Virus record (IMG/VR): IMGVR_UViG_3300033153_016031
Coordinates: 1 to 25,671 of that record
Origin: a virus
Strand: one strand, 5' to 3'
Length of the DNA: 25,671 nucleotides
The stretch's first letter is position 1. Each line of letters starts with the position of its first letter. This document shows, piece after piece, positions 7,467-22,395 of this stretch. The position numbers were made by a program, and so were the translations under genes. The notes beneath the pieces were generated by a model. That model had not been told where the DNA came from. It saw nothing but the letters and a program-made list of their open reading frames with translations, and did no database searches.

Positions 7467-8426
7467 CTAACGTCTTTCTATGAATTTCTTCGCCCTGTCG
7501 CTGCGTTGCGACGCGACAGTTCTGGCGATGGAGGTGGAGTCTTCGTTTCTATCGATGTCATGGGTCTGGCGGAACTTCTTCAGCTTCCGGGAAATCGTCG
7601 AGTGGTGAACCGAATAGCCCTCATCGTTCAGCGCTCTGGCCGCAGCCCGGGCGTTTCCGCCGTGCATCTTGAGCGCCTGCAACATGGCCTCATCCGTCAA
7701 CTCGGTCTTCTTGTCGACCTTGACCTGTCGGCGGATCATCAACTGTAGATCCTCATGCGTTATCTCCAGGCCACCGGCCATGTGGGGCGTTTCATCCGCC
7801 ACCCGTACGATATCCATGAGGGTTTCGCCGTCGAGTTCCACCGTCGCGTCGTCCCAATACAGGACCTCCGACAGCGGAATCACCGGCGGCTTCCTGCCGG
7901 GCCAGACGCGGTCGTCGGGCGCATGATGCGGAACCAGCACGATGGTCCGGCCGTCCATCGGTACACGCCCGACCAACTCGGCCGCATCTCCGTCTCCCAG
8001 GCGGCGGAGGAGAACTACCGGCCGGGCTTTCTCGGGACCGGGCGGCCACGGCGTGCGGCCTAGCCGCCAGAACCGGCCCGCCACGACCTCCTTGGGCTTA
8101 CCTTTGAGCCCCAACAGGCGGGAGGCCGCTTGGGCCAGGCCAGCCGAGTCGATCTCCCAGCGTTCGAGCATCTCCGGCCGGACCTCCACCAGCAGGGCTT
8201 CCGGGCAGGAGATGTAGAAGCGACCGTCGGCAACAGTCACGGGTTCGGCGTGCCCGCCGTCGCAGTTGGGGCACGTCGCGTACATTGCGCCGGCGGAGCG
8301 GCGCAGAATTCCCAGCCGCTGGAGTTCCTCCAACGCGCCAGAGGGCCATGCCGCCATGGCGGCGTGGTCGAAGTTGCGGTCGACGTCATCGGCCGCCGCC
8401 AACAACATCGGCAATAGGTCATTCAT
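7467..8426 (-). CDS. unrecognised protein with N-terminal zinc-knuckle and C-terminal helix-turn-helix
   Basis: A 319-residue protein. Near the N terminus are CPNC (51-54) and C73, a possible zinc ribbon missing one visible ligand. The middle (about 90-215) is hydrophobic-rich and probably globular, with no motif I can name. Residues about 235-285 (TELTDEAMLQALKMHGGNARAAARALNDEGYSVHHSTISRKLKKF) form a good Fis-like helix-turn-helix. This suggests DNA binding, either as an early-gene activator or as a replication initiator. The tail is basic. Its start overlaps the stop of the upstream gene by 8 bases, so the two are coupled. It is followed by a 220-bp gap before the sigma-factor start in which I see no gene. 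Confidence 0.8.
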   Translation of the reverse strand: MNDLLPMLLAAADDVDRNFDHAAMAAWPSGALEELQRLGILRRSAGAMYATCPNCDGGHAEPVTVADGRFYISCPEALLVEVRPEMLERWEIDSAGLAQAASRLLGLKGKPKEVVAGRFWRLGRTPWPPGPEKARPVVLLRRLGDGDAAELVGRVPMDGRTIVLVPHHAPDDRVWPGRKPPVIPLSEVLYWDDATVELDGETLMDIVRVADETPHMAGGLEITHEDLQLMIRRQVKVDKKTELTDEAMLQALKMHGGNARAAARALNDEGYSVHHSTISRKLKKFRQTHDIDRNEDSTSIARTVASQRSDRAKKFIERR

Positions 8427-9603
8427 CGTCGCCGCTCACCTTCCAGAGTTTCAGGCACCGCTCGCCGATCTCACGCTTGTCGTCGGGCCAACTCTTCAGG
8501 TCGCAAGAACTGGGGGCACCGACGGAAAACGTCATCGTCGGAGCCCGGCCCGGCCCGTCGTGCTGGAAGGTCAGACGGAACGTGGCCTTCAGCACCCGGG
8601 TGCTTTCGCGGGGAAGGTGCGTGTCGTCGAGCCACCGTTCGATCTTCCGGTAGATGTCATTGGGCGCCCCCTTGATGTCCGCTTTGATCTCGACCGAACC
8701 GTTGCTGCCCGTAGGCGACAGGCGCATCGCCGTGATGCGGGCTTCCGCGACCCGGTCGTGGGGATCGGTCGCCAGCGGGAAATCCGTCTGCAGCAGATGG
8801 TCGAGCTTGTACGATGGACGAAGCGGATCGGCCGGCGCGACCTCCACACCGAGTACCGCCTGGCAGAAGGCGGCCTCCAGCGGCTCGCGGACCTGCCGGC
8901 CACCCGGCGCATACGATTCCATCGTTCCCTCGCCGCTGTTGTAGACGAACACGTTCTCGAAGGCGTAGCGTCCCGCCTGCATGGCCGGTCGGCCATCGTC
9001 GTCGAAAACCACGTGCTTGCCGGGATAGTCGTCCAGGTAAGCGAAGAAGTACTCCGCGCCGCTGCTTCGAGGGTAATGGGCGACCTTGCAGAAGCGGCCG
9101 CGCATCTGCAACGGGCCGTAGAAATCCGTCAGCGCCGTCGCCAGACGCGTCGTCAGCGCCTCATCCACGGTGAGTTTGCCCTTGGGCAGCCCGTTACGCT
9201 TCTCCCAGGAGCGGCCCGCCGCCAAGGCGTCGGCGCGGGCGAACATGGCCGCGTCCTCGAAGACCTCCGGGACGTTCAGATAGGCCCACATCGCCTTGTC
9301 GGCCTCGCCCACCTGGGCCTCGAACTGCTGCGCACGTTCGGGACACCGCAGGCGAACCAGTTCAACCAGCGCCGCCACGCCGCGATGGTCGGCCAGTTCG
9401 TGAATGTCGCGAAGCAGGACCTGCACCTCCAACTGCGCCGATTCGGGCAGATCCTGCCAGGCCTCGAACACCGGCCCGATCTTGTACTCGGTCAACTCGC
9501 CCCAAGGCACATCCAGCAGTTCGCCGCGCCGGGCGAAGAACTCCTGCAGCAGCGGATTCGCGATGTGCTTGAGGACCTTCCTTGGATCAAACGGCTTAGC
9601 CAT
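8419..9603 (-). CDS. unrecognised 394-residue phage-module protein
   Basis: A soluble protein with no motif I can assign. It begins MAKPFDPRKVLKHIAN and ends LKLWKVSGDDE. The first third is helical and leucine-rich (ELADHRGVAALVELVRLRC); the middle and C-terminal parts are strand-rich, with several paired aromatic and acidic residues (EYFFAYLDDYPGKHVVFDDDG). ATG 9603 is chosen over ATG 9612 because AAAGGA lies 9 bases before it but abuts the earlier codon. It follows a terminator and an inverted repeat, so it probably begins a transcript that runs into the helix-turn-helix gene. A role in replication or DNA modification is possible, but nothing in the sequence shows it. Confidence 0.78.
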   Translation of the reverse strand: MAKPFDPRKVLKHIANPLLQEFFARRGELLDVPWGELTEYKIGPVFEAWQDLPESAQLEVQVLLRDIHELADHRGVAALVELVRLRCPERAQQFEAQVGEADKAMWAYLNVPEVFEDAAMFARADALAAGRSWEKRNGLPKGKLTVDEALTTRLATALTDFYGPLQMRGRFCKVAHYPRSSGAEYFFAYLDDYPGKHVVFDDDGRPAMQAGRYAFENVFVYNSGEGTMESYAPGGRQVREPLEAAFCQAVLGVEVAPADPLRPSYKLDHLLQTDFPLATDPHDRVAEARITAMRLSPTGSNGSVEIKADIKGAPNDIYRKIERWLDDTHLPRESTRVLKATFRLTFQHDGPGRAPTMTFSVGAPSSCDLKSWPDDKREIGERCLKLWKVSGDDE

Positions 9604-9619
9604 GACGGCCATTCCTTTC

Positions 9620-9638
9620 TACCGTCCACTAAACGGTA
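9620..9638. promoter_or_regulatory. inverted repeat TACCGT-N7-ACGGTA, candidate operator
   Basis: A perfect six-base dyad spaced by seven bases, just upstream of the ribosome site of the 394-residue protein gene and just downstream of a terminator. The position suits a repressor operator over a promoter start. It could equally form a short mRNA hairpin. Confidence 0.45.
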
Positions 9639-9650
9639 AACATCGGATTC

Positions 9651-9674
9651 AAAAAAAGAAGGCACGACGCCCTC
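9651..9674 (-). terminator. intrinsic terminator after the ImmA-like gene
   Basis: On the minus strand GAGGGC and GCCTTC form a six-pair stem (one G-T pair) around the loop GTCGT, followed directly by seven T. It starts immediately after the metallopeptidase stop codon at 9675. This is the cleanest intrinsic terminator in the window and separates the regulator operon from the downstream phage genes. Confidence 0.72.
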
Positions 9675-10388
9675 TCAGAACAATCGAGGCTCATTCTTCT
9701 TCACCAGCAGCCCGAGATTCTGCAGCCGATAACGCATCGCCTGGGCCGAGACCTCGAACCGGTCGGCCAGCGGCCGACAGAACTGGTCCATCGCCATCTC
9801 TTCATTGGCCTGGCGGTCGGCATGGTAATCGCCGACCGGCAGATCGGCGATCGCGACGGGCATGTCGCTGTCCCGCCATTGCGACCACGCTTCGTAGACC
9901 ATGTCACGCGGCATCAGTATACAGGATGCGAACATGTTCGCCTGGATCTCCTCGGGCGGGTTCGCACTGGATCGCTGGACGAACGCCGGTTCGCAGTCCG
10001 CGTCGAAAAGTGATTTGGCCGACGGATCGTCCATCAGGTGCTGGCGGTGCAATCGCCAGTGGCCGACCTCGTGGGCGAGCGTGAAACGGTAGCGGCCGAG
10101 CATCTTCGGCGTCACCGACGGGTCCAGCGACTGATCCACCTTGATCGTCCGGTCGCCGAACCAGATGCCGCCCAGGACGTCCGGGTGGCCCAGATCCGCC
10201 TGGAGGTCAACCACGAGGAACGTCAGTTCCAGGTGAAGCTCAAGGATATCCTCGATCGGTACCGGCGGCTCAGCCACTGCCGGGTGGCCTTCGGCCCATT
10301 CGTCCAGCAGCAGTTGCGCATCCCGCTCGATCCTCTTCTCAGGGAGGAACGGCACCTTGTACTGACGGTACGCAAAACGGCGCTTCAT
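9675..10388 (-). CDS. ImmA/IrrE-family zinc metallopeptidase
   Basis: Zinc protease of the family in which ImmA cleaves the XRE repressor ImmR of ICEBs1 and IrrE cleaves DdrO. The 237-residue protein has TLAHEVGHWRLH (the HExxH at 106-110) and a downstream Glu147 in PPEEIQANMFASCILMP, the usual third ligand segment. Its start overlaps the stop of the XRE gene by one base (TAATG), so the two are translationally coupled, the classic repressor-antirepressor pair. A terminator follows its stop directly. The C-terminal part (about 165-237) is probably a sensing or substrate-binding region. It most likely removes the adjacent repressor on a DNA-damage or phage signal; that substrate is inferred from the pairing. 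Confidence 0.92.
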   Translation of the reverse strand: MKRRFAYRQYKVPFLPEKRIERDAQLLLDEWAEGHPAVAEPPVPIEDILELHLELTFLVVDLQADLGHPDVLGGIWFGDRTIKVDQSLDPSVTPKMLGRYRFTLAHEVGHWRLHRQHLMDDPSAKSLFDADCEPAFVQRSSANPPEEIQANMFASCILMPRDMVYEAWSQWRDSDMPVAIADLPVGDYHADRQANEEMAMDQFCRPLADRFEVSAQAMRYRLQNLGLLVKKNEPRLF

Positions 10389-10756
10389 TACTGACCGTCT
10401 CCATCCTTCTTCCGATCGCGAATCTCGTCCGTGAGTTTTCGCAACTCATCTGCAGTAAGCCCTTTAGCGGCACGCAACAACGCTGGCATAGCCTGTGGCT
10501 CGCTCTTGATGATGTCTCTCAGATCATCCGGGATGCGGCCGGCCAGAGCGATCCACTCATCCGGGTCCTGGCCCAGCAGTTCCGCCATCGAGCGTACCCG
10601 TTCTGCCGTGGGCGGGCGATCAACCTTGCCCTGCTCTACCTGCGACAGGTACGTCGGGCTGACATCCACCATGCTCGCGAACTTGCGCAGGCTGTAGCCC
10701 TTGGCGATTCGCGTCGCCCGGAGCAGGTCGCCCAAGATTTTGCGTGGGTCCGGCAT
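10388..10756 (-). CDS. XRE-family HTH transcriptional repressor
   Basis: A 122-residue DNA-binding protein. The Cro/C1-type helix-turn-helix covers residues 7-65: LGDLLRATRIAKGYSLRKFA, then VSPTYLSQVEQGKVDRPP. A short helical C-terminal region rich in charge (ELRKLTDEIRDRKKDGDGQ) probably holds the dimerisation part. I place the start at ATG 10756, which has AGGA 7 bases upstream; the longer frame to 10822 runs over its promoter. It pairs with the ImmA-like protease and is transcribed away from the MutL/MORC gene. The overlapping opposed promoters beside it make this the likely regulator of both the phage module and the defence operon, though the operators are not proven. Confidence 0.92.
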   Translation of the reverse strand: MPDPRKILGDLLRATRIAKGYSLRKFASMVDVSPTYLSQVEQGKVDRPPTAERVRSMAELLGQDPDEWIALAGRIPDDLRDIIKSEPQAMPALLRAAKGLTADELRKLTDEIRDRKKDGDGQ

Positions 10757-10769
10757 GGTGAATTCCTGA

Positions 10770-10798
10770 TTGACAAGGGCCTGTTTATCAGATAGTGT
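10770..10798 (+). promoter_or_regulatory. candidate sigma-70 promoter for the defence operon
   Basis: TTGACA (10770-10775, perfect -35) and TAGTGT (10793-10798, three of six -10 matches) are spaced by 17 bases on the plus strand. Transcription would start near 10805 and leave a leader of about 100 bases before the TTG start at 10909. The -10 overlaps that of the opposed XRE promoter. Confidence 0.55.
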
Positions 10799-10822
10799 AC
10801 AGTGATGCGGCCAGTGAGTCAA
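10794..10822 (-). promoter_or_regulatory. candidate sigma-70 promoter for the XRE-ImmA operon
   Basis: On the minus strand TTGACT (10822-10817) and TACACT (10799-10794) are spaced by 17 bases. Transcription would start near 10787, about 30 bases before the XRE start codon. Two CAGTGA copies (10800-10805 and 10812-10817), with starts 12 bases apart, lie within it and could be repressor half-sites. Confidence 0.55.
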
Positions 10823-10908: not shown

Positions 10909-12438
10909 TTGCTTAAGCATCGTCGCAATGAACCGGTTGACATAGTGCCGCCATCGGCATCCGCTATGATTGAGTCCATGCGGGCGTACGGTTACTCACT
11001 TCCCGTAGCCGTCGCCGACCTCATAGACAACAGCATCTCGGCCGGAGCACGCAACGTGTGGCTCACGTTTCATTGGGGCGGCCAGGATTCCTGGATATCC
11101 ATTGCTGACGACGGAACTGGCATGGACGAGAACTCACTGGTTGCAGCCATGCGACTTGGCAGCCAGAGCCCATTGGTGAAGCGATCGACATCCGATCTGG
11201 GGCGATTCGGTCTCGGAATGAAGACCGCGTCATTCTCGCAGTGCCGACGGATGACAGTCAAGTCCGTCCGCAATGACACAGCTTCGGTCCGAAGGTGGGA
11301 TTTGGACTACATATCATCGCAGGCTGATACGAACGAAGACAGCTGGCGACTTCTGCGTGAACCCGCCGATGGCTCGGACGCCCGGCTGGCCTCACACGCC
11401 CAATCCGATGGCACTGTAGTGCTCTGGGAGAGAATGGATCGCGTGGTTGGCGAATCGCATGTGAGTGATGAAGCAGACCAGAGAGCCTTTCATCGCCACA
11501 TCAGGAGCGTCCAGGATTACCTCGGCATGGTCTTCCACCGTTTTCTGCAGGGCCCGCGGCCCCGCTTGCGAGTTTTCATCAACGGAAACGGAAGCGAAAA
11601 CCGTATCCAGCCGTGGGACCCGTTCGTGCAGGACCACCCCTGCACTCAGACGACCCCGGCGGAACCCATCATGGTGGGGCCGCACAGGATAGCGGTCAAA
11701 GGCTTCGTGCTTCCTCACAAGGACCGACTGGGCCACGACCGACATCGCGAAGCCTCCGGCCCCAAGGGATGGAACGCCCACCAGGGCTTCTACGTCTACC
11801 GCAACGAGCGACTGCTGGTTGCTGGAAGCTGGCTCGGACTCGGACAGGGAAAGGCCTGGACGAAAGAGGAGCACTACAAACTGGCCCGCATCCAACTCGA
11901 TTTGCCGAATACGATGGACCAGGAGTGGCAGATTGACGTCAAGAAGTCCGTTGCAGTTCCACCCGCGGCCGTCCGGGGACGCTTGCTTGCTCTGGCGAAG
12001 GAGGTCAGGCAACTCGCGAGGGAAGTATTCGCCCACCGCGGCCAATACGGGCCGCGGGCAGCCCGGCCGGATCTGGTTCGCCCCTGGCTCGCTACAACAT
12101 CGAGCGGACGGCCGAAATACCGGATAGACCGGAACCATCCGCTCGTTGCTGAACTTCTGCGGCTGGCGGGGAAGAACAGCGCCTTGACTGAAGCCGCCCT
12201 GCAGGTGATTGAGGAGACAGTGCCTGTCCAACGAATATGGCTTGATGCTGCTGAGAAGCCAGACACCCACCTCCTGCCTTTTGAAGATCGGACCAGGACG
12301 GATGTCAAACGCCTGATCCAACAGACCTACGAAGCATGTCTGGCCGGCGGAATGGCCCCCGACGAAGCCATGCATCGGTTACGCTGCCAGGAAGAGTTCC
12401 GTGAGTATGGGGAACTCATGAATGAACTTGAGGATTGA
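10909..12438 (+). CDS. mzaB: MutL/MORC-like GHKL ATPase of a Z1/AIPR defence system
   Basis: An ATP-driven clamp-like protein. The GHKL fold is clear: N box VADLIDNSISAGA (36-48), G1 ADDGTGM (66-72), and G2 DLGRFGLGMKTASFS (97-110). In MutL the N-box general base is Glu; here the aligned residue appears to be Asp37, with the Mg-binding Asn at 41. The remaining roughly 400 residues carry a transducer-like strand region (WNAHQGFYVYRNERLLVAGSW) and a helical end. Start is TTG 10909, supported by AGAGGA 8 bases upstream; the next ATG would remove part of the N-terminal arm. It is the first gene of a four-gene overlapping operon with Z1, DUF4420-like and AIPR proteins, the set described as MORC-associated restriction or Mza. 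The symbol follows Mza naming from memory. Confidence 0.9.
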   Translation: MLKHRRNEPVDIVPPSASAMIESMRAYGYSLPVAVADLIDNSISAGARNVWLTFHWGGQDSWISIADDGTGMDENSLVAAMRLGSQSPLVKRSTSDLGRFGLGMKTASFSQCRRMTVKSVRNDTASVRRWDLDYISSQADTNEDSWRLLREPADGSDARLASHAQSDGTVVLWERMDRVVGESHVSDEADQRAFHRHIRSVQDYLGMVFHRFLQGPRPRLRVFINGNGSENRIQPWDPFVQDHPCTQTTPAEPIMVGPHRIAVKGFVLPHKDRLGHDRHREASGPKGWNAHQGFYVYRNERLLVAGSWLGLGQGKAWTKEEHYKLARIQLDLPNTMDQEWQIDVKKSVAVPPAAVRGRLLALAKEVRQLAREVFAHRGQYGPRAARPDLVRPWLATTSSGRPKYRIDRNHPLVAELLRLAGKNSALTEAALQVIEETVPVQRIWLDAAEKPDTHLLPFEDRTRTDVKRLIQQTYEACLAGGMAPDEAMHRLRCQEEFREYGELMNELED

Positions 12439-12443
12439 CCGCC

Positions 12444-15269
12444 ATGAAACCAGACGACGCCGCCCACATCATTTCGATGGTCTCTCAACGCCTTATGAGG
12501 CGAAAAGACAAGATGGATGGAATCCTACCGGAGGGCTGCATCGAATCTGAGCTGGACCGTGAATTGGAAACTGAGCCGTACGATGTTGATCGCGGCGAAC
12601 TCCTGGCTCAGCTTGAGTCCAACTTTGCAACCCTTATTGGCTTGGCGTCATGCCTTCAGTCTGACGAAGCAAAGGACCTGCCGGATGCGCCCTGGGTCCG
12701 GCTTGCCCTCTCCGACGGCAACCTGGAGTGGCGTTTCTGGGCTCGTTATCGCCAGTATCTCCTCAAGAACGGCTGGCCCGCGCCCGTTGTATCAAGGCTG
12801 GACCAGACGACCACCCAGATACTCGACAGCATGATGCCATCGACCACGCCGGGCTCTTGGGATCAGCGGGGCCTTGTGGTTGGTCACGTTCAGTCAGGAA
12901 AGACTGCGAACTACACGGGGCTGATCTGCAAGGCCGTTGATGCGGGCTACAAGGTGATCGTGGTGCTGGCCGGGGCCCACAACAACCTTCGCACGCAGAC
13001 TCAGATCCGCCTGGAAGAGGGCTTCCTGGGCTACAGCACCATCGATGAGGACCTGGATCGCAGGGAGACCACCGGCGTCGGCCTGATCAGTCCGCCTCAC
13101 ATCATCCCTGACACGATCACGACCCGTGGCGACAACGGGGACTTCAAGACCAGCGTTGCCAAGAACTTCGCCATCAATCCCGGCGGGAACCCGCTGTTGT
13201 TCGTTGTGAAGAAGAACACCACGGTCCTGAAGAACCTTCACAACTGGGTGCGCGACGTTGCCAGGACGCAGGGCCAGAGACTCATGCGAGCCGTTCCTCT
13301 TCTGGTGATTGATGATGAGTCCGACTATGCCTCCGTTGACACGAACAAGCAGGACTATGATTTCGACAACACGCCTGATCCAGAACATGACCCGACCGCC
13401 ATCAACCGGTGGATACGCCTGATTCTGCGATCTTTTGAGCAGAGCGTCTACATCGGGTATACGGCAACGCCATTTGCGAATATCTTCATTCATGAGAAAG
13501 CGGAGTCTGAGGAACACGGCGAGGATCTCTTCCCGCGGTCATTCATCTTCTCCCTGCCCGTTCCAAGCAACTACGTCGGCCCCGCCCAGATGTTTGGCAG
13601 CCGAGAAGACGGCTCCGAAGGACTCCCCATCTTCCGAACAGTAAGTGACCACGCCGCCTCAGACTCGCTTCGCGAGCAGGAGGGATGGATTCCGCCAAGG
13701 CACGACACGACGCATGTGCCAACCTACGACGGGATTCGAACAGTTCCTCCTTCGCTGAAGGAAGCCCTTCGTTCATTCCTCCTTGCCACAGCTGCCCGGA
13801 AGGCGCGCGGTCAGGCGCAGGCGCATAATTCCATGCTCATCCACGTGACGCGGTTCGTCGACGTACAGGCGCGAGTTCACGAGCAGGTGGAGGAGGAGTT
13901 CTTCTCATTGCGCGATCGCATCCTGTATGGGGACGGAGACCGCGCCCCGCTCCTGGAGGAACTGAAGGACCTCTGGCTTTCTGATTTCGTCCCGACCAGC
14001 AGTGCCATCGGCGCAGAAGACTGCCATGAGGTAACATGGGATGACGTGAGGGCAAAACTGGCTGACACGGTCAACTCCATCACGGTCAAGGCCATCAACG
14101 GGTCCAGCGGCGACATCCTTGAGTATGAGCGACATGCTCGAGCCAACCAGCCGTTCGACGTAATCGCGATTGGCGGCGACAAGCTGTCCCGAGGCCTAAC
14201 GCTTGAAGGGCTGACCGTGAGCTACTTCCTCCGACACTCCAAGATGTACGACACGCTAATGCAGATGGGGCGATGGTTCGGGTATCGTCCCGGCTATGTC
14301 GACATGTGCCGGGTGTATACGACGACAGATCTGCAGACGTGGTTCCGCCATATATCGCTGGCTGCCGAGGAACTCCGGGAGGATTTTCAGCAGATGGTGG
14401 TCAGTGGATGTACACCCAGGCAGTTCGGACACAGGGTGCAGAACCATCCTGAGATGATGGTCACGTCACCGAGCAAGATGCGATACACCGAGAGGCGGAC
14501 CACTTCTTTTGACGGCTGCATTTCGGAAACTGTTCTTTTCCGGCGTGATCCTGAAGTGGTGCAGGCCAATGTTGCGGCGTTGCGAACCCTTGCGGCTGGC
14601 ATGCAGGCGGATTGTGATGCCGGCAAGGCGACGAGGGTCAACGGGAAGCTGCTGTGGGAGAGCGTTGAGCACTCCCGAATTACGTCATTCCTCAAGGCCT
14701 ATCATGGGCACCCGGCCATCACCAGAGCCAGGCCGGAATACTTGCAGAAGTACATAGATCAACAGGCGGTGCGCAAATGCCTGACCAAGTGGACTGTGTA
14801 CGTTGACCAAGGGCTCGGCAGCGAATATGACCTCGCCGACGGGGTCACGGCAAGGAGCGTGCAGCGAGCATGGCACAAGCGTCCTGATCCGGTGACCAAC
14901 AGGGACCCCTATCGCGTGAAAAGAGTGGGTGATCCTTCTCATGAGTACATTGACCTGAATGACGATCAGCACGAGGAAGCCCTGCAGTTGTCCGTGGCCA
15001 TGTGGGAGGCCAGTGGCGGTGAAGAACGGGGAGTCTCGCGACCCGCTGCTCCGAGAGGACCGGCCATTCGCCAAGTCCGCAAACCAAAGGATGGGCTGAT
15101 GTGCATCTACCCGGTAGACGCGGACCTCGGCGATGGATGCCCTGCGCTGGAGCATCCGCTGATTGGGTTCTTCATAAGCTTCCCGGGCGATCCTGAGGCG
15201 CAGGGCGTGCAGTACACGGTGAACGAGGTCTATCGCCGACAGGAAGAGGAGGGGTTCTGGGATGAGTGA
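12444..15269 (+). CDS. mzaC: Z1-domain superfamily-2-like ATPase/helicase
   Basis: A 941-residue motor-type ATPase. Walker A is GHVQSGKTANYTG (147-159, Lys153), Walker B LLVIDDESDYAS (near 286-297), the motif III equivalent GYTATPFANIF (near 336-346), and late helicase motifs GGDKLSRGLTLEGL (near 577-590) and MQMGRWFGYRPGY (near 605-617). This order is the Z1 domain signature. I use ATG 12444 rather than the TTG at 12435 because GAGGA lies about 9 bases before the ATG. The TTG reading would overlap the upstream stop. Its end overlaps the next gene by 8 bases. In these systems Z1 is thought to translocate on DNA and work with the GHKL ATPase and the nuclease. Full length for the family. Confidence 0.93.
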   Translation: MKPDDAAHIISMVSQRLMRRKDKMDGILPEGCIESELDRELETEPYDVDRGELLAQLESNFATLIGLASCLQSDEAKDLPDAPWVRLALSDGNLEWRFWARYRQYLLKNGWPAPVVSRLDQTTTQILDSMMPSTTPGSWDQRGLVVGHVQSGKTANYTGLICKAVDAGYKVIVVLAGAHNNLRTQTQIRLEEGFLGYSTIDEDLDRRETTGVGLISPPHIIPDTITTRGDNGDFKTSVAKNFAINPGGNPLLFVVKKNTTVLKNLHNWVRDVARTQGQRLMRAVPLLVIDDESDYASVDTNKQDYDFDNTPDPEHDPTAINRWIRLILRSFEQSVYIGYTATPFANIFIHEKAESEEHGEDLFPRSFIFSLPVPSNYVGPAQMFGSREDGSEGLPIFRTVSDHAASDSLREQEGWIPPRHDTTHVPTYDGIRTVPPSLKEALRSFLLATAARKARGQAQAHNSMLIHVTRFVDVQARVHEQVEEEFFSLRDRILYGDGDRAPLLEELKDLWLSDFVPTSSAIGAEDCHEVTWDDVRAKLADTVNSITVKAINGSSGDILEYERHARANQPFDVIAIGGDKLSRGLTLEGLTVSYFLRHSKMYDTLMQMGRWFGYRPGYVDMCRVYTTTDLQTWFRHISLAAEELREDFQQMVVSGCTPRQFGHRVQNHPEMMVTSPSKMRYTERRTTSFDGCISETVLFRRDPEVVQANVAALRTLAAGMQADCDAGKATRVNGKLLWESVEHSRITSFLKAYHGHPAITRARPEYLQKYIDQQAVRKCLTKWTVYVDQGLGSEYDLADGVTARSVQRAWHKRPDPVTNRDPYRVKRVGDPSHEYIDLNDDQHEEALQLSVAMWEASGGEERGVSRPAAPRGPAIRQVRKPKDGLMCIYPVDADLGDGCPALEHPLIGFFISFPGDPEAQGVQYTVNEVYRRQEEEGFWDE

Positions 15270-16263
15270 CTCGCTTGCCGACGCGTGGAAAGAGCTGGCA
15301 ACCTCCTCGGATGAATCCAGTGGACTGCGACGGATTCGCGTTGAACCCATGCAGTACTGTGTCTACGCCGGTTGGACGATACCGTCAGGTCAACCGGCAT
15401 TGGCTGCCGTGGTGGATACTGCTTCCGTACCCATGGACATTGACCTTCCACAGTCAGCGGGTTTCAGTGTTTCCATCAGCCACTTGCCGCATGATGCCGC
15501 CAGTTCTCTGGTCCTTCTGCAGGCGGAATCGGATCAGTACCATGAGGTGTTTGACAGACTCGCGGAAGATGTCCGCGCCGAGATCAGGAATGCTGACAGC
15601 GAAAGAAACCTGGTGACTACGTTCGTGGCAAGGCTTCGGCGGTGGCAACTGTTTTTGAGCCGCCGTCGGGTTGCTCACCTTTCGCGATCTGAGCAGGTCG
15701 GCCTGTGGGGAGAACTCTGGTTCCTCCGATCGCACCTGATCCCTAAGCTTGGGATGGATAGCGCGGTTCAGGCATGGCGAGGCCCCGATGGAGCAAACCA
15801 GGACTTCGAGTTCTCTGGCCAAGCCGTTGAGGTCAAGACAAGTTCGGCGAATCCTGAAGGCAAAGTCCACATCTCCAACATACTGCAACTCGTGGATGAG
15901 GGCCTGGAGGCCTTGTACCTGCGATACATCCACGTATCAATACACCAAGGCGCTGGAACGTCTCTGCCTGATCTGATCCTGAGGGTGAAGAACGATCTTG
16001 GCGCGTGTTCGTCGGCTCGGCAGCAGTTCGAGATGAAGCTGTTCGATGCCGGCTACCTCGACTCGGAAGAGAGCCATTACCGTCGCATGGGGCTTGCGGT
16101 CCTTTCAGAAACTACATATCGCGTCACGGGCGGATTCCCGCGCCTGCTTCCAAGCGACCTGCCGCCGGGGGTGGGCGATGTCCAGTATGTATTGTCTCTG
16201 GGAGCCTGTCGGGATTTCGAAGTTACGCCTGACCCATTCGTAGAGGGCTGTTCTGATGACTGA
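15262..16263 (+). CDS. mzaD: DUF4420-like PD-(D/E)XK nuclease subunit
   Basis: A 333-residue protein, probably the nuclease of the system. The restriction-endonuclease core is visible at about residues 145-195: GLWGELWFL with Glu, then DFEFSGQAVEVKTSS, giving the Asp and Glu-x-Lys of a PD-(D/E)XK site, followed by HISNILQL. The N-terminal 130 residues are mixed helix and strand with no named motif. It overlaps both neighbours by 8 bases, which argues for a fixed protein ratio. DUF4420 proteins occur with Z1, MutL/MORC and AIPR genes. The active-site pattern is clear by eye; the domain name is from context and memory and would need a profile search to be sure. Confidence 0.88.
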   Translation: MSDSLADAWKELATSSDESSGLRRIRVEPMQYCVYAGWTIPSGQPALAAVVDTASVPMDIDLPQSAGFSVSISHLPHDAASSLVLLQAESDQYHEVFDRLAEDVRAEIRNADSERNLVTTFVARLRRWQLFLSRRRVAHLSRSEQVGLWGELWFLRSHLIPKLGMDSAVQAWRGPDGANQDFEFSGQAVEVKTSSANPEGKVHISNILQLVDEGLEALYLRYIHVSIHQGAGTSLPDLILRVKNDLGACSSARQQFEMKLFDAGYLDSEESHYRRMGLAVLSETTYRVTGGFPRLLPSDLPPGVGDVQYVLSLGACRDFEVTPDPFVEGCSDD

Positions 16264-18340
16264 TATGCGTCAAGATCTGGTAGAGTTCGCCGACTCTGTT
16301 GAGGCCTACATTACGTCCCGTCTGGAAGAGGGCGATACCGAAGGCTTGGGCTCGTTTCGTGAGCAACTGTTCACCGAGCATGTCTGCGGGTATTTGGTCG
16401 AGTACGGGGCGATTAACGATGTCGAAATGTGCTTCTTCGAGCACCAGCATGGCCGAGGTCAGTGCAAGGCCAACGCCTACTGCGTCGCCGACGACTGCTC
16501 GAAGGTGACGATTGTGTCCACGGTCTATCGGGATGAGCCCCTGTCAACTGTTCACCGGAAGGATCTGGAGCTGGCCGTGCGACGCGCCCTGCGCGTCTTC
16601 GAGGCCGCCCGCGCTGGTATTCGAACGTCCATGGAACCAGCACTTGAGTCGTACTCCATGATGCAGCGATTCGAGGAGGCAGAATCAGCCATCGACTGCG
16701 ACATCGTCGTGCTGACGAATGGACTGGCGGCATCAGCAATCGAAGACGCGGGGCTTCCCGATCTTGGAATCCGCATTACCAGTCAGGTGTGGGACATGGA
16801 GCGGCTCTCCAGGTGTGCTGCTTCCGGCCGATCATATGAGACGATCTCGATTGATTTGGCTCGCACGGCTACCGGGCCTATCGAGTGCCTGAAAATGCCC
16901 GAGTCATCCGCTGACTATGACGCCTATATGGCGATCATCCCCGGTAACCTGCTGTTTGAGCTTTATGATCTGCACGGAGCGAAGCTGCTGGAACTCAACG
17001 TGCGTTCATTCCTTCAGGCACGCGGGAAGGTCAATCGCGGCATCCGCGACACAATCCGCAGTGAGCCTCACCGGTTCCTGGCGTACAACAACGGAATATC
17101 GGCCACCGCAGAATCCGTGGGTATCGAAAGAAACGGAGGCGGTTCGCTTCAGATCACTTCGATGGAGGGGTTCCAAGTTGTGAATGGAGGCCAGACCATG
17201 GCCTCCATACACCGAGCGAGGAAGACCGATCAGGCCGATCTTTCGGACGTGTTCGTCCAAGCCAAGATCACTGTAGTTCCGCCAGAGCAGATCGACGATA
17301 TTGTTCCGCATATTTCCAGGTACGCAAACACGCAGAACCGGGTCAGTGAAGCTGACTTCTCGTCTAACGATCCCTTCCATGTCAAGATTGAGCGGCTGTC
17401 TGAGCGCATATGGTGTCCGGGGGAGTCTTCGCGGTGGTTCTATGAGCGGGCGCGAGGGCAGTACCAGGTAGCCCGCGCTCGAAGGGGAACGACTCCTGCA
17501 CGTCGGAGGGATTTCGATGCAATGGCGCCGACTGCACAGAAGTTCGACAAGACCGGGCTGGCCAAGTACGTGAATGCTTGGGACCAGCTGCCATACCTGG
17601 TCGGAAAGGGCAACCAGAAGAATTTCGTCCATTTCATGAGCATGCTGAAGGAGCGAGGGGAAGCATGGTCGCCGGACGAGGCCTACTACCGCGACCTGAT
17701 CGCCAAAGCGATCATCTACAAGCGTGCTGAGAAGATCGCCCGTCAACACAAGTTCCCGGGATTCCGCGCCAATGCCGTCGCCTACACAGTCGCCTTGCTC
17801 TCGTACAAGACTGTCGGGCGCGTTGACCTTGGGGCCATATGGGCGCAGCAGCGCGTTTCCGACGCCATGGCAGACACGCTCTACGAATGGATGCCGGTGG
17901 TCCTCAACTGCATCCTGAGTTCCGCAGGGGAACGCAATGTAACCGAGTGGTGCAAGAAGGAGGAGTGCTGGCGAACCGTCCAGGTTGCTGAGGTGGAGAT
18001 TGCTGAAGCCCTCCAGCAGGAACTGGCTGAAGGCCAACCTCTGCCTACCGTCGGCAGCGCCAAGGGACGGCAAGGAGTGGGCCTGACTCATCTGGATCGA
18101 GAGAACATTGCGAAGACTATGCAGATCTCAGCTGAGGAATGGCTGGGCGTCCACAAATGGGCGACCGAGAAGGAACTGCACTACTCAATGTCCGGCATTG
18201 CCCTGACACTGAGTGGGTACGCTGCCAACGGCTGGCAGAAAGTGCCCTCGGCCAAGCAGGCCAAGCAAGCGGTCAAAATGGCCCAGATGGCATCGGACGA
18301 CGGGCTTTTCGCGAACGAAGACATCGTCGAAGCGTCATAG
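16256..18340 (+). CDS. mzaE: AIPR-family (abortive infection phage resistance) protein
   Basis: A 694-residue protein of the AIPR family. Diagnostic stretches are FLAYNNGISATAE (near 273-285) and FQVVNGGQTMASIHRA (near 304-319), followed by a conserved region with QNRVSEADFSSND (near 360). The N-terminal 110 residues include a possible nuclease-like strand set. AIPR proteins are linked to phage exclusion and recur as the last gene of MutL-Z1-DUF4420 operons. Here the gene overlaps the DUF4420-like gene by 8 bases and ends 7 bases from the converging vsr stop. Biochemical activity of the family is poorly defined, so I give only the family and the system role. Confidence 0.92.
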   Translation: MTDMRQDLVEFADSVEAYITSRLEEGDTEGLGSFREQLFTEHVCGYLVEYGAINDVEMCFFEHQHGRGQCKANAYCVADDCSKVTIVSTVYRDEPLSTVHRKDLELAVRRALRVFEAARAGIRTSMEPALESYSMMQRFEEAESAIDCDIVVLTNGLAASAIEDAGLPDLGIRITSQVWDMERLSRCAASGRSYETISIDLARTATGPIECLKMPESSADYDAYMAIIPGNLLFELYDLHGAKLLELNVRSFLQARGKVNRGIRDTIRSEPHRFLAYNNGISATAESVGIERNGGGSLQITSMEGFQVVNGGQTMASIHRARKTDQADLSDVFVQAKITVVPPEQIDDIVPHISRYANTQNRVSEADFSSNDPFHVKIERLSERIWCPGESSRWFYERARGQYQVARARRGTTPARRRDFDAMAPTAQKFDKTGLAKYVNAWDQLPYLVGKGNQKNFVHFMSMLKERGEAWSPDEAYYRDLIAKAIIYKRAEKIARQHKFPGFRANAVAYTVALLSYKTVGRVDLGAIWAQQRVSDAMADTLYEWMPVVLNCILSSAGERNVTEWCKKEECWRTVQVAEVEIAEALQQELAEGQPLPTVGSAKGRQGVGLTHLDRENIAKTMQISAEEWLGVHKWATEKELHYSMSGIALTLSGYAANGWQKVPSAKQAKQAVKMAQMASDDGLFANEDIVEAS

Positions 18341-18347
18341 CTGGCCT

Positions 18348-18764
18348 CTATACGTCGGGACGTCGTATCTCTGATGCCAGACGCCCGGCCAAGCGATCCA
18401 TGTCATGCAGTTCACACTCCCACACAACAACCACAGTCCAACCCGCCCGCTCCAATGCTTCTTGAGTTCTGGCGTCGCGATCCACGTTCGCGGAGAACTT
18501 CTCCGTCCAGAACTTGACGCGGGATTTGGGTGTGTAGGCAAAGCGACATCCGGGATGTCGGTGCCAGAAGCAACCATGGACGAAGATGACGGTCCGGTGC
18601 TTCGGCAGAACAATGTCCGGCGTACCGGGAAGATCGCGCCTATGGAGTCGGAACCTGTACCCAAGTCGATGGAGCAGCGATCGGACCTGCTTCTCAGGGC
18701 GTGTATCCCGGCTCCTTATCCGAGACATGTTCCGGCTTCGTTCCTCGGGTGTCAGGCGATCCAT
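18348..18764 (-). CDS. vsr: Vsr-family very-short-patch-repair endonuclease
   Basis: Nicks DNA at T:G mismatches left by deamination of 5-methylcytosine, so it partners a C5 methyltransferase. The 138-residue protein shows GTPDIVLPK with catalytic Asp50, VHGCFWHRHPGC with His63 and His68, and zinc ligands Cys65, His70, Cys73 and Cys117 (VWECELHD), all at the spacing known from E. coli Vsr. The N-terminal helix RLTPEERSRNMSRIRSRDT is also typical. It follows the methyltransferase gene by 11 bases on the same strand and converges on the AIPR gene. In some MORC/Z1 systems the Vsr-like protein may act as a restriction enzyme instead of a repair enzyme; the sequence does not decide. Confidence 0.95.
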   Translation of the reverse strand: MDRLTPEERSRNMSRIRSRDTRPEKQVRSLLHRLGYRFRLHRRDLPGTPDIVLPKHRTVIFVHGCFWHRHPGCRFAYTPKSRVKFWTEKFSANVDRDARTQEALERAGWTVVVVWECELHDMDRLAGRLASEIRRPDV

Positions 18765-18775
18765 CGGTCATGCCT

Positions 18776-20332
18776 CTATTTGCTCAGAATCCTCCACACG
18801 ATTCCTGCAATCTGCTTTGCCAAGAGCGGAGGCACGGCATTTCCAACTTGAAGGTACTGCGCCGTGCGTGGTCCGCAGAAGAAGTAGTTGTCAGGAAACG
18901 TCTGAATCCGTGCTGCTTCGCGAACCGTCAGGCTTCGACACTGTGAAGGGTCAGGATGTATGTAGTAGTGGCCATCCTTCGACATATGGCACGTGATCGT
19001 GGTTGCGGGGCGCCCCTTGCACTGTACGCGGAAGCGGTCGGCGAAATGGCCGCCCACCCCTCCTGCCGCTTCCAGAGCGTTCTCATGGTCAGGCAACAGG
19101 CCTGCAGGGAACTCGCGAAGCGATGGGGCTCTGCCAATGATCTCGGCGTAGCACGAAGCGAAAAGGTAGCGATGAAGGTCGTCTTCTCGATGGAAGCGTG
19201 CCTCATGATTGAGAGCGGCTTCCAGACGATCGTCCCAGAACCAGTCGGGCTCAACGGCAGGCTTCCTTCCCCGGCCCATGCTGCGTTTCGGCAGTTCTCT
19301 CTGCTGACGACCAAGCGCAGCGATCACCTGCCTGATCCTTCTTCGGACCGGCTTATCTAGCTCCGAGAGCCAAGGCGAGTCTGCCGCGTCAAGCAAGCAT
19401 CTGCGCCAGTTCTCCCACGAATCCGAACACGACGCGCTCCGCGACAACCCGCTTCGAATCCGAGGGAGCGTCAACACTGACTCTATAGGGCACGGTTCCT
19501 TGATGACGGGCAGAGTCTCGTTCAGGATCTCGCCCTGCGCGAAATCATCCCGAATCCCAAGAAGAATGACCCGATGTCGGGACTGAGGAATGCCGCACTC
19601 CTCTGAGCGCACAACGAAATCAGCAGGACGCAATTCGTCTTCACTGCGCTGGCAAGTCAGAGAGAAGAGCCGGTATGTATGAACAGAAGAGCCGCCTACG
19701 GCCGCGCCCGGACTGGCCAGATCCCTCCGGATCGCCGGGAAGATGTCCTTGCCCCTAGCTCGTGCACTCAAGATGCCCTTGACGTTCTCCATGATGAACA
19801 GGGGTGGCCAGTGCTCGGCCAAGATGTTCAGATACTCACGATAGAGGAAGTGCCTCTGATCGTCCTCAAATTCCGGATTCCTGGCGTTACGTGATCGCCC
19901 CACGAGCGAATACGCCTGACACGGAGGCCCCCCGATCAGCACCCAGGCGTCGTGTCCGCCCAACGCACGTTTGATCCTCCCATGCAGAGCCTCTTCGGTT
20001 TTCGGTGCTCCGAGTTCGGCATTCCAGGCCTCCTCAAGGGCCGCTGCGCTCTGAGATGGATATCTGCTGAACAGCTCCTCTCTTGTCAGTTCGTTCGGGG
20101 AGCAGACATGGAGGTAGTAATCGTCCGGAACTGGCGATCCCGCATATCCGAACTGCCTGAAGAAGGCCCGCAGCGACAGCGTCTCCCACGCCCGATGATC
20201 CTTCTCCACCGACAGGCGGATCCTGAACGGATGCTCACTCCCTTGCCTGAAGGCAGAGAATCCCTCGCCCAACCCGCCAGGGCCAGCAAAGACATCGATC
20301 ACGGGGATGTATCCACTTATGCATGTATCCAT
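18776..20332 (-). CDS. C5-cytosine DNA methyltransferase
   Basis: Transfers a methyl group from S-adenosylmethionine to C5 of cytosine in a specific site, protecting the host from the adjacent restriction genes. Motifs in order are I VFAGPGGLGEGF (14-25), IV GGPPCQAYS (134-142, Cys138), VI MENVKGI (181-187), VIII QSRHR (248-252), and IX/X near the C terminus (SLTVREAARIQTFPDNY, QVGNAVPPLLAKQIA). The long stretch of roughly 260-430 is the target-recognition part. I start at ATG 20332, with AGGAAG about 4-8 bases upstream; upstream ATG codons (near 20347 and 20371) lie in the promoter. Length 518 residues, normal for a larger Dcm-type enzyme. Site specificity cannot be read by eye. Confidence 0.95.
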   Translation of the reverse strand: MDTCISGYIPVIDVFAGPGGLGEGFSAFRQGSEHPFRIRLSVEKDHRAWETLSLRAFFRQFGYAGSPVPDDYYLHVCSPNELTREELFSRYPSQSAAALEEAWNAELGAPKTEEALHGRIKRALGGHDAWVLIGGPPCQAYSLVGRSRNARNPEFEDDQRHFLYREYLNILAEHWPPLFIMENVKGILSARARGKDIFPAIRRDLASPGAAVGGSSVHTYRLFSLTCQRSEDELRPADFVVRSEECGIPQSRHRVILLGIRDDFAQGEILNETLPVIKEPCPIESVLTLPRIRSGLSRSASCSDSWENWRRCLLDAADSPWLSELDKPVRRRIRQVIAALGRQQRELPKRSMGRGRKPAVEPDWFWDDRLEAALNHEARFHREDDLHRYLFASCYAEIIGRAPSLREFPAGLLPDHENALEAAGGVGGHFADRFRVQCKGRPATTITCHMSKDGHYYIHPDPSQCRSLTVREAARIQTFPDNYFFCGPRTAQYLQVGNAVPPLLAKQIAGIVWRILSK

Positions 20333-20342
20333 ATAACTTCCT

Positions 20343-20371
20343 ATCATAATTGGATTTGCGTTAGGATTCAA
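20343..20371 (-). promoter_or_regulatory. candidate sigma-70 promoter for the methyltransferase-vsr operon
   Basis: On the minus strand TTGAAT (20371-20366) and TATGAT (20348-20343, five of six -10 matches) are 17 bases apart. The expected start would be near 20336, which leaves only about four bases before the ATG at 20332. Either the mRNA is nearly leaderless or the start of transcription or translation lies elsewhere. Confidence 0.6.
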
Positions 20372-20425: not shown

Positions 20426-20827
20426 TCAACGTTGGTTCACTCCACGTATCTCACGCCACAGCCCGCGTTGCTGCCTCCAATCCTTCACCCGGGCGATCGG
20501 CCGCAGGTCTCGCTCCGTGATCGGGTCGCGGCCTTCCATCACCGGCGGGAGGTGCAAGATGGCTTCCTGGATGTCGGGGGCCAAGTGCAGCAGGTTCATG
20601 ATCTGTGTCATGCGGGGTTGTGTGACGTGGGCAAGACGGGCCAGTTCTGACTGGTCGGCGACATGGCCGTCGCGAAGGAGTCCCTCGAAGCGGATCGCGA
20701 GGGCCATCAGCTTTGACACGCGGGGAATGCGACCTGCCGGTTCGGACGGTTCGTGCGGCGGGCCGGGCTTGGCCACCTTACGATGGCCCTTGGTTGCGAA
20801 ATGAATCTGCTTTGTGACGGTTGTCAT
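20426..20827 (-). CDS. KorB/ParB-type helix-turn-helix protein of the recombinase module
   Basis: A 133-residue protein with a basic N-terminal arm (VTKQIHFATKGHRKVAKPG) and a ParB/KorB-like helix-turn-helix at about residues 57-82 (DQSELARLAHVTQPRMTQIMNLL), followed by helices ending in RDLRPIARVKDWRQQRG. Proteins of this kind regularly sit immediately after a large serine recombinase and DUF2924 gene. The ATG at 20827 overlaps the recombinase stop (ATGA), so it is coupled to it. It probably binds the recombination site or regulates the module. It ends about 95 bases before the methyltransferase start codon, on the same strand. Confidence 0.87.
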   Translation of the reverse strand: MTTVTKQIHFATKGHRKVAKPGPPHEPSEPAGRIPRVSKLMALAIRFEGLLRDGHVADQSELARLAHVTQPRMTQIMNLLHLAPDIQEAILHLPPVMEGRDPITERDLRPIARVKDWRQQRGLWREIRGVNQR

Positions 20828-22395
20828 GCCGCGGCGTCCTCCATCTTGCGGTCGATCAGCGAACGGATGCTTGTCGGTCTGAAGGTGAACGACACGGTCC
20901 CCGCCTCGCTGTCGTACTCAACCGTAGAGATCAGCAACTTGAGCAGGCGGGCCTGTTCGCGGGGAATCAGGTTCTCCCATAGGCTGTCGAAGTCGGCGAA
21001 GGCCGCACGCGCCTCAGACTCGGTGATCGTCTTGTTTTCCAGTTCGGCGATACGCGATTCGAGGCCTGGCAAGCGCTGGTCGGCCGTAGACAGCCGTTCG
21101 TGAAGCGTGGCAATCCGGGCGGTCACATCAGTCGTGGTCCTGCCGCTGGTGACAAGCTGCTGGAGTTCGTCATGGAGGCGTTGCCGTTCCCGTCGAAGAT
21201 CGTCCCGGTCGCGTCGAGCAACTGACAGTTCGGCCTCGATGGCGGCTTGGGCGTCGTGGAGCACCTGGGCGAAGAGGGCTTCATCTTTGACCAGGCCGCG
21301 GATCTCGTCGACAACCACGCGCTCAATCTCTCCAGCAGGAAGCGTGCCCGAAGGGCAGCTATCGTGGCCGTTCTTGATCGCGCTGGTGCAGCGGTAATAC
21401 CTGTAGAAGTTCCGCTTGGATTTGCCGCAAAAGGTGTGCGTCATGGCTGTGCCGCAACTCTTGCAGCGTAGCAGACCGCGAAGAAGCGCCCCGTACTTGT
21501 TGCGGACCTCAGCACCACCGGTTCGCCCGTTGAGCTTCAATTGCTTCTGGACCTTGTCGAAGATGTCCTGATCAACGATCGCCGCGTGCTCGCCCTCGTG
21601 GAGTTCGTCCTTGTACCGCATTTTGCCGGTGTAGATGGGATTGGTCAGCAAGACGTACAGGCTGGATTTGTCGAACGGCCGGCCGCCGAGCTTCTTGCCC
21701 TTCTTCGTGACGCGACGCTTGTTCACCCAGCCGCGGCGGGCGAGTTCCTTGACCACAGGCAACAGGGACGCCTCCTGAAGATACATCCGGTACATCTCGC
21801 GGACACGTGCGGCCTCTTTGGCGTTGACCACCAGACGGGGACTGGGGCCGGTCCGATCCACGTCATAGCCCAACACCGGAATGCCGCCGGTCCATTTGCC
21901 CTTGCGGGCCTGAGCGGCGAGTTTGTCGCGGATGCGTTCGCCGATTATTTCACGCTCGAACTGGGCAAAGCTCAGCAGAATGTTGAGCGTGAGCCGTCCC
22001 ATCGAGTGAGTCGTATTGAAGTGCTGGGTGACCGAGACGAACGAGACGCCGTGGTTGTCGAAGGTCTCCATGATGCGAGCAAAGTCGAGAAGCGAACGGC
22101 TAAGGCGGTCAACCTTGTAGACCACCACGCAGTCGACCTTGCCCCGCTCGATGTCCTGTAGCAAACGGTCGAGGGCCGGGCGCTCCATGTTGCCGCCGGT
22201 GTAGCCGCCGTCATCGTAGCGGTCCGGCAGAGCCTCCCACCCCTCGGCTTTCTGGCTGGCGATGTACGCCTCGGCCGCGTCGCGTTGGGCGTCGAGTGAG
22301 TTGTACTCCTGATCGAGGCCTTCCTCGCTGGACTTGCGGGTGTAGATGGCGCAACGGATCCTCGGCTTCTCGGCCTTCCTACTGCGTGAACTCAT
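20824..22395 (-). CDS. large serine recombinase (resolvase/integrase)
   Basis: Site-specific recombinase for integration or excision of the element. The 523-residue protein has an N-terminal resolvase domain with RCAIYTRKSSEEG, whose Ser22 is the expected nucleophile next to Arg20, and the DRLSRSLLDFARIME motif. The recombinase domain follows (RKGKWTGGIPVLGYDVDRTG, then KEAARVREMYRMYL). Next is a zinc ribbon (LLRCKSCGTAMTHTFCGK, YYRCTSAIKNGHDSCPSG), then a long coiled-coil (SVARRDRDDLRRERQRLHDEL) and a short strand-rich end. Domain order and length are those of large serine integrases. It overlaps the DUF2924 gene by 4 bases and the HTH gene by 4 bases. Whether it mobilises the whole window is not known. 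Confidence 0.95.
   Translation of the reverse strand: MSSRSRKAEKPRIRCAIYTRKSSEEGLDQEYNSLDAQRDAAEAYIASQKAEGWEALPDRYDDGGYTGGNMERPALDRLLQDIERGKVDCVVVYKVDRLSRSLLDFARIMETFDNHGVSFVSVTQHFNTTHSMGRLTLNILLSFAQFEREIIGERIRDKLAAQARKGKWTGGIPVLGYDVDRTGPSPRLVVNAKEAARVREMYRMYLQEASLLPVVKELARRGWVNKRRVTKKGKKLGGRPFDKSSLYVLLTNPIYTGKMRYKDELHEGEHAAIVDQDIFDKVQKQLKLNGRTGGAEVRNKYGALLRGLLRCKSCGTAMTHTFCGKSKRNFYRYYRCTSAIKNGHDSCPSGTLPAGEIERVVVDEIRGLVKDEALFAQVLHDAQAAIEAELSVARRDRDDLRRERQRLHDELQQLVTSGRTTTDVTARIATLHERLSTADQRLPGLESRIAELENKTITESEARAAFADFDSLWENLIPREQARLLKLLISTVEYDSEAGTVSFTFRPTSIRSLIDRKMEDAAA

Follow-up and report, generated by a model that had tools for sequence, protein, structure and literature searches.

How newly acquired defence genes come to be expressed and regulated is largely an open question, and it is raised by a stretch of viral DNA of 25,671 nucleotides from an IMG/VR virus contig (the window), in which two opposed promoters at positions 10770-10822 lie between an operon for an XRE repressor and an ImmA peptidase and a defence operon of the Mza type. 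We consider it likely that this segment is a bidirectional promoter belonging to the backbone of a planctomycete temperate phage and bordering a slot for exchangeable defence genes, with one arm serving XRE–ImmA, the other serving the divergent defence genes, and both being controlled by XRE. Sequence comparison establishes how the promoter is built, that this design is conserved and follows cargo orientation, that the slot has a sharp border and that there are two operator-like sites (O1 and O2); the activity of the promoter, the binding of XRE, the strength of O1 relative to O2 and the action of ImmA on XRE are what we infer.

Two promoters with overlapping -10 boxes

The preliminary description of the window had proposed a plus-strand promoter TTGACA-17-TAGTGT opposed to a minus-strand promoter TTGACT-17-TACACT, with -10 boxes overlapping at 10794-10798, and these elements can be read directly and exactly in the sequence:

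10770..10775, plus strand: -35 box TTGACA of the outward (defence-facing) promoter, 6 of 6 consensus bases, seen as its complement GTCAA in relatives
10793..10798, plus strand: -10 box TAGTGT of the outward promoter, 17-nt spacer, 3 of 6 consensus bases, predicted start at about 10805
10794..10799, minus strand: -10 box TACACT of the XRE–ImmA promoter, 17-nt spacer, 4 of 6 consensus bases, predicted start at about 10787
10817..10822, minus strand: -35 box TTGACT of the XRE–ImmA promoter, 5 of 6 consensus bases, doubling as the border of the exchangeable-cargo slot

The -10 boxes, on opposite strands, have five bases in common, the defining property of a bidirectional promoter. From the predicted minus start it is about 31 nt to the ATG of XRE (10756), and from the plus start about 104 nt to the TTG of MzaB (10909). 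A mechanical TTG start for XRE at 10822 was set aside in favour of the ATG at 10756, and GATAGT, at 15-nt spacing, was dropped as the plus-strand -10 box because relatives keep TAnnnTA at 17 nt.

When the window was scanned with a generic promoter model, only the minus-strand promoter was listed, the plus-strand one being missed because TAGTGT matches just three of the six consensus bases, a poor score by a consensus that may not fit the promoter preferences of Phycisphaerae. Among 60 composition-shuffled versions of the window, 11 produced a loosely defined face-to-face pair, so that little weight can rest on a loose consensus by itself; the strict pattern TTGAC-N18-TAnnnTA-N18-GTCAA, allowing up to a single mismatch, is matched once in the window and never in 100 dinucleotide shuffles. 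Conviction comes from comparison with relatives and not from such single-sequence chance statistics.

The arrangement resembles the bacterial bidirectional promoters described by Warman, Grainger and colleagues (PMC12825309, PMC10268837), in which symmetric -10 boxes likewise overlap and polymerase binding is exclusive. Divergent starts at such promoters are preferentially 10, 18 or 23 bp apart, 18 bp being the commonest distance (PMC12825309), and it is this spacing that separates the predicted starts of the window. Both arms may answer to a single regulator, AcrR at PacrA/acrR being an example and XRE the predicted case here. What is different is that one arm is fixed on the repressor operon while the other faces changing cargo, and that the outward arm is gone when the cargo is turned.

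The phage backbone and its cargo

On the minus strand the genes run in the order integrase, recombinase-associated protein, cargo, XRE, ImmA, hairpin and early operon:

20824..22395, minus strand: serine integrase (phrog_95, 4e-127)
20426..20827, minus strand: recombinase-associated protein of 133 aa (phrog_14161)
10388..10756, minus strand: XRE (HTH) repressor of 122 aa, with AGGA upstream of its ATG (Pfam HTH_31, 5e-15; PADLOC capH, 1e-10)
9675..10388, minus strand: ImmA/IrrE-type (M78) peptidase of 237 aa with the motif HEVGH (Pfam, 6e-13; PADLOC capP, 3e-19)
9656..9676, minus strand: intrinsic-terminator-like hairpin directly after ImmA and before the early operon
8419..9612, minus strand: first gene of the early operon (phrog_37634)

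Residues H106, E107 and H110 of ImmA are invariant in 12 sequences, and the early operon also encodes sigma-like, exonuclease VIII-like, Sak4-like and SSB proteins. Structural genes were not found in the window itself. A search with four structural Pfam families missed the phage genes; in the record of the close relative L002, scans with PHROGs and Pfam found a lambda-type portal and a GpA-type terminase together with a prim-pol and a helicase; a terminase is also present in the record of L041. The idea that the element might not be a phage was dropped after the portal and terminase had been seen in the L002 record, since their presence marks these elements as phages. The combination expected of a temperate tailed phage is thus spread over the window, which carries the integrase, and the records of its relatives, which carry portal and terminase. 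Relatives of ImmA in public genomes come mostly from Phycisphaerae and from other Planctomycetota, so the window most likely comes from a temperate phage of these bacteria. In the record of L002 (L131:17709-19085), a fusion of a ParB-like protein and a DNA methyltransferase is encoded between the replication and packaging genes, and a similar gene is present in the L041 record.

The cargo of the window consists of six genes:

10909..12438, plus strand: MzaB (GHKL ATPase), first cargo gene, TTG start (PADLOC MzaB, 7e-141)
12435..15269, plus strand: MzaC (Z1 helicase-like; PADLOC MzaC, 3e-226)
15262..16263, plus strand: MzaD (DUF4420, PD-(D/E)XK; Pfam and PADLOC)
16256..18340, plus strand: MzaE (AIPR; Pfam and PADLOC)
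18348..18764, minus strand: Vsr-like endonuclease (translation read)
18776..20371, minus strand: Dcm-type cytosine methyltransferase (translation read)

PADLOC matches to MzaB, MzaC, MzaD and MzaE in one operon identify the system as Mza, of which the Dcm-type gene would be the methylase (MzaA-type). The gene for the Vsr-like mismatch endonuclease adjoins that of the Dcm-type methylase, and both oppose the Mza operon (18348-20371).

The slot holding this cargo lies between XRE and the integrase, and its far border is the recombinase-associated protein. Relatives combine the same XRE–ImmA pair and backbone with other defence cargo, as is characteristic of a phage defence hotspot: their cargo proteins include type I R-M (HsdM/HsdR-type), Mrr-type, NOV_C and SNF2 helicases, DUF499 and DUF6079 proteins and one cysteine-desulfurase-like protein, and four loci (L035, L041, L042 and L088) have the slot without large cargo. 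In nine sister loci, pairwise identity is 0.95 from the -35 box of XRE inward to XRE, as opposed to 0.28-0.34, near random, outward of it. Cargo is therefore exchanged immediately outside this box, and since similarity ends at XRE's own -35 box, the outward promoter falls wholly within the phage backbone.

Cargo orientation and the outward promoter

Relatives of ImmA were used as bait to collect 16, 25 and 80 loci (the first two sets overlap), and in each of them we noted where XRE starts, what sequence lies upstream of it and which way the neighbouring gene points. Searching viral contigs with XRE alone or with MzaB gave no loci; the ImmA query did. Eight loci that came from a promoter-pattern scan of viral contigs were without ImmA homologues and were regarded as chance. 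Coding strands were assigned by codon-position GC; for 28 cargo proteins a Pfam check was added, in which L044 alone was without a match.

Cargo is divergent from XRE in 25 loci, and in 23 of them (the window and 22 others) a face-to-face promoter is found at the identical place, which bears out the earlier placement of the site between the phage XRE/ImmA operon and the defence operon and adds that its conservation among related phages depends on how the cargo is oriented. The 23 loci have TTGAC-(16-18)-TAnnnT toward XRE and TTGAC-(17-18)-TAnnnT toward the cargo, overlapping in a symmetric TAnnnTA that is present throughout and whose middle bases differ (TACAGTA, TACACTA, TATAGTA, TAAGCTA). 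Two divergent loci, L071 and L076, are without the outward -35 box. Co-directional loci are of two types: either XRE has no promoter and lies close behind a cargo gene (e.g. L043, L051 and L054), or an XRE promoter is present without an outward -35 box (L005, L013, L015, L035, L041, L042, L088, L079, L082, L084 and L085), the XRE promoter having been recognised in several co-directional loci by eye and not by regular expression. Among promoter-bearing loci, the outward -35 box is thus present in 23 of 24 divergent versus 0 of 11 co-directional ones (Fisher, 3e-8), or in 12 of 13 versus 0 of 6 when XRE clusters are counted (3e-4). On the tree, orientation changed at least eight times. The outward-promoter label tracks orientation in five of six independent pairs on supported branches, with one tie and none opposite (p = 0.06); relatedness limits these orientation statistics, and the promoter-bearing loci alone give only two independent pairs.

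The outward arm might be nothing but the inherent symmetry of the -10 box, giving weak, non-functional antisense transcription while the defence operon has another promoter. Bacteria often show such transcription, which accounts for 19% of E. coli RNAs (PMC12825309), and the plus-strand -10 box is weak. However, symmetry alone does not explain why an outward -35 box is conserved at a fixed 17-nt spacing and is absent with co-directional cargo, and the generic scan gave no other sigma-70-type site on the plus strand ahead of MzaB, so that we regard this explanation as improbable. On another reading there is just one real promoter, that of XRE, and the outward TTGAC/GTCAA is one side of a wide inverted repeat to which XRE or some other regulator binds. 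The two -35 boxes do form an inverted repeat, which in some loci is extended to GGTTTGAC/GTCAAACC, but in divergent members conservation of the repeat flanks does not extend past the -35 core, GTCAA is missing from L005, L071 and further promoter-bearing loci that have kept the XRE promoter, its presence tracks cargo orientation, and regulation is better accounted for by a separate palindrome (below). We find the wide repeat unlikely, and prefer to see the outward box as part of a bidirectional promoter. The GTCAA columns hold 1.6-2.0 bits each, and most of the nearest spacer columns 0.1-0.5. L005, which is nested among divergent relatives, has kept an operator-like site (13.8 bits) and lost the outward -35 box, so operator and outward -35 box are separable.

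In one clade (L053, L057, L058, L061 and others) the spacer of the XRE promoter, GGTTATGTCCATG, is near-invariant; its opposite strand starts a short frame, MDITGGS, which frequently continues into the cargo gene and is probably a by-product of operator or promoter conservation. Its conserved ATG (ATGGACATAACC) was discarded as a cargo start, being upstream of the predicted start site.

Candidate operators of XRE

Two palindromic sites are candidates for XRE binding:

9621..9637, unstranded: O2, ACCGTCCACTAAACGGT, a near-perfect palindrome ahead of the early operon
10780..10796, unstranded: O1, CCTGTTTATCAGATAGT, overlapping both -10 boxes, 8.8 bits (5.9 bits in a second register at 10787-10803)

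In the closest relatives of the window, ImmA and the early operon are separated by a gap with a 17-bp palindrome, the two arms of which change together (ACCGTTCAnTGAACGGT, ACTGTCAACTGGACAGT, and ACCATCCATTGGATGGT in L045). A weight matrix trained on O2 of the other phages, the window's own O2 being left out, ranked 9621-9637 first and 10780-10796 third among 25,655 positions of the window. Matrix sites are enriched in the XRE promoter, with a combined p of 2e-10 over 11 promoter-bearing loci (optimistic, since related loci are treated as independent) and of 0.62 over four loci without the promoter. In every locus having both sites O1 scores below O2, in a matrix that was built from O2 and so favours it, and O1 is weak in L045, L050 and L007. 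The palindrome before the early operon and its weaker copy over the shared -10 boxes are, judging by these patterns, likely to be XRE operators. When a promoter for the early operon was sought by eye near O2, no clear TTGACA-type site was seen. The second-best match in the window, ACTGTTCACCGGAAGGA (14.9 bits), lies at 16547-16563 inside the coding sequence of mzaE, and may be due to chance or be an extra XRE site. L079 and L084 have other palindromes before the early operon, that of L079 being AGTGTGTAATACACACT, with a similar GGTGTGTAGTAAACACT in its XRE promoter; the palindromes of these other clades suggest that repressor specificity drifts together with the operators.

Two copies of CAGTGA (10800 and 10812, starts 12 apart) had been put forward as repressor sites. 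Relatives do not conserve the pair, and the best match containing a copy reaches at most 5.9 bits, as against 8.8 for 10780-10796; the copies were rejected as operators for these reasons. The position of O1 bears likewise on the idea, also put forward earlier, of a bistable switch, in which exclusive binding of polymerase would make cells choose between expression of the regulator and of the defence genes. Overlapping -10 boxes cannot indeed be occupied simultaneously, but a likely operator spanning both directions would have the two arms repressed and released together, which argues for shared control. No feedback from Mza to XRE is known, and we know of nothing in the Mza operon that antagonises XRE. 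Moreover, published bidirectional promoters are without basal competition, and interference at them lowers noise: at five studied E. coli ones, basal transcription was too low for polymerases to compete, so that the other direction did not gain when one was blocked (PMC12825309). We therefore hold a bistable switch to be very improbable, and favour shared control by XRE.

Proposed shared control of repressor and defence

Under shared control, one arm of the promoter would make the XRE repressor and the ImmA peptidase, and the other would leave the backbone and drive whichever divergent defence operon sits there, Mza in the window. XRE would probably bind weakly at O1, over the shared -10 boxes, and strongly at O2. 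In a lysogen the early operon would then be off, and XRE–ImmA and the defence genes would be held at a modest, low shared level; O1 being lower than O2 would fit such a state. A signal such as DNA damage might lead ImmA to inactivate XRE, by analogy with CapH/CapP and ImmR/ImmA, and release both arms and the early operon. The CapP-type peptidase, which ssDNA activates, cuts its HTH partner, and ImmA may do the same to XRE.

The mobile element thus seems to provide a regulated promoter, so that cargo could be swapped without a promoter of its own and defence would be tied to the lysogeny repressor. We give an even chance to the more general proposal of a "promoter dock", in which the lysogeny repressor would hold down both arms of a backbone promoter, and this promoter would give any divergent defence operon that recombines next to it immediate expression and life-cycle control. 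If this were true, acquisition of defence by prophages would be independent of the cargo's own promoter, and the docking border would be the repressor's -35 box. The natural swaps of cargo and of orientation amount to a comparative experiment already performed, and planctomycete genomes could be searched with the conserved 60-bp segment as a marker to locate unknown defence genes.

ICEBs1, a mobile element, is controlled by an XRE-type repressor, ImmR, and the protease ImmA, its repressor operon diverging from the xis operon. Here, in contrast, the repressor operon is co-directional with the early operon and divergent from the defence cargo.

Bidirectional promoters, control of the CapH/CapP kind, phage defence hotspots and defence tied to a repressor promoter are all known already (PMC12825309, PMC13373217, PMC9122126, PMC11087260). 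CapH and CapP respond to DNA damage and control the immune operons beside them (PMC13373217 and works cited there). The pair in the window, an HTH repressor and an M78-type peptidase with an HExxH motif, likewise adjoins defence cargo, which varies among relatives; unlike CapH/CapP, it sits in a temperate phage backbone and has a second candidate operator before the phage early operon. The hotspots of P2-like phages and P4 satellites similarly hold many different defence systems at one fixed phage locus, but those systems were cloned and tested with native promoters, whereas here the backbone appears to supply the promoter (PMC9122126). In S. aureus phage 80alpha, Tha lies in the cI operon, so that prophage defence is coupled to the lysogeny repressor promoter as proposed here, but on the same transcript as cI and not on the other arm of a two-way promoter (PMC11087260). 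In the open-licence literature we found no report of a hotspot in which exchangeable cargo is driven from the backbone by an outward arm of the repressor promoter.

A related XRE–ImmA pair occurs in Myxococcota genomes (L092-L099), beside an inverted serine integrase and a 169-aa protein and with a different promoter layout.
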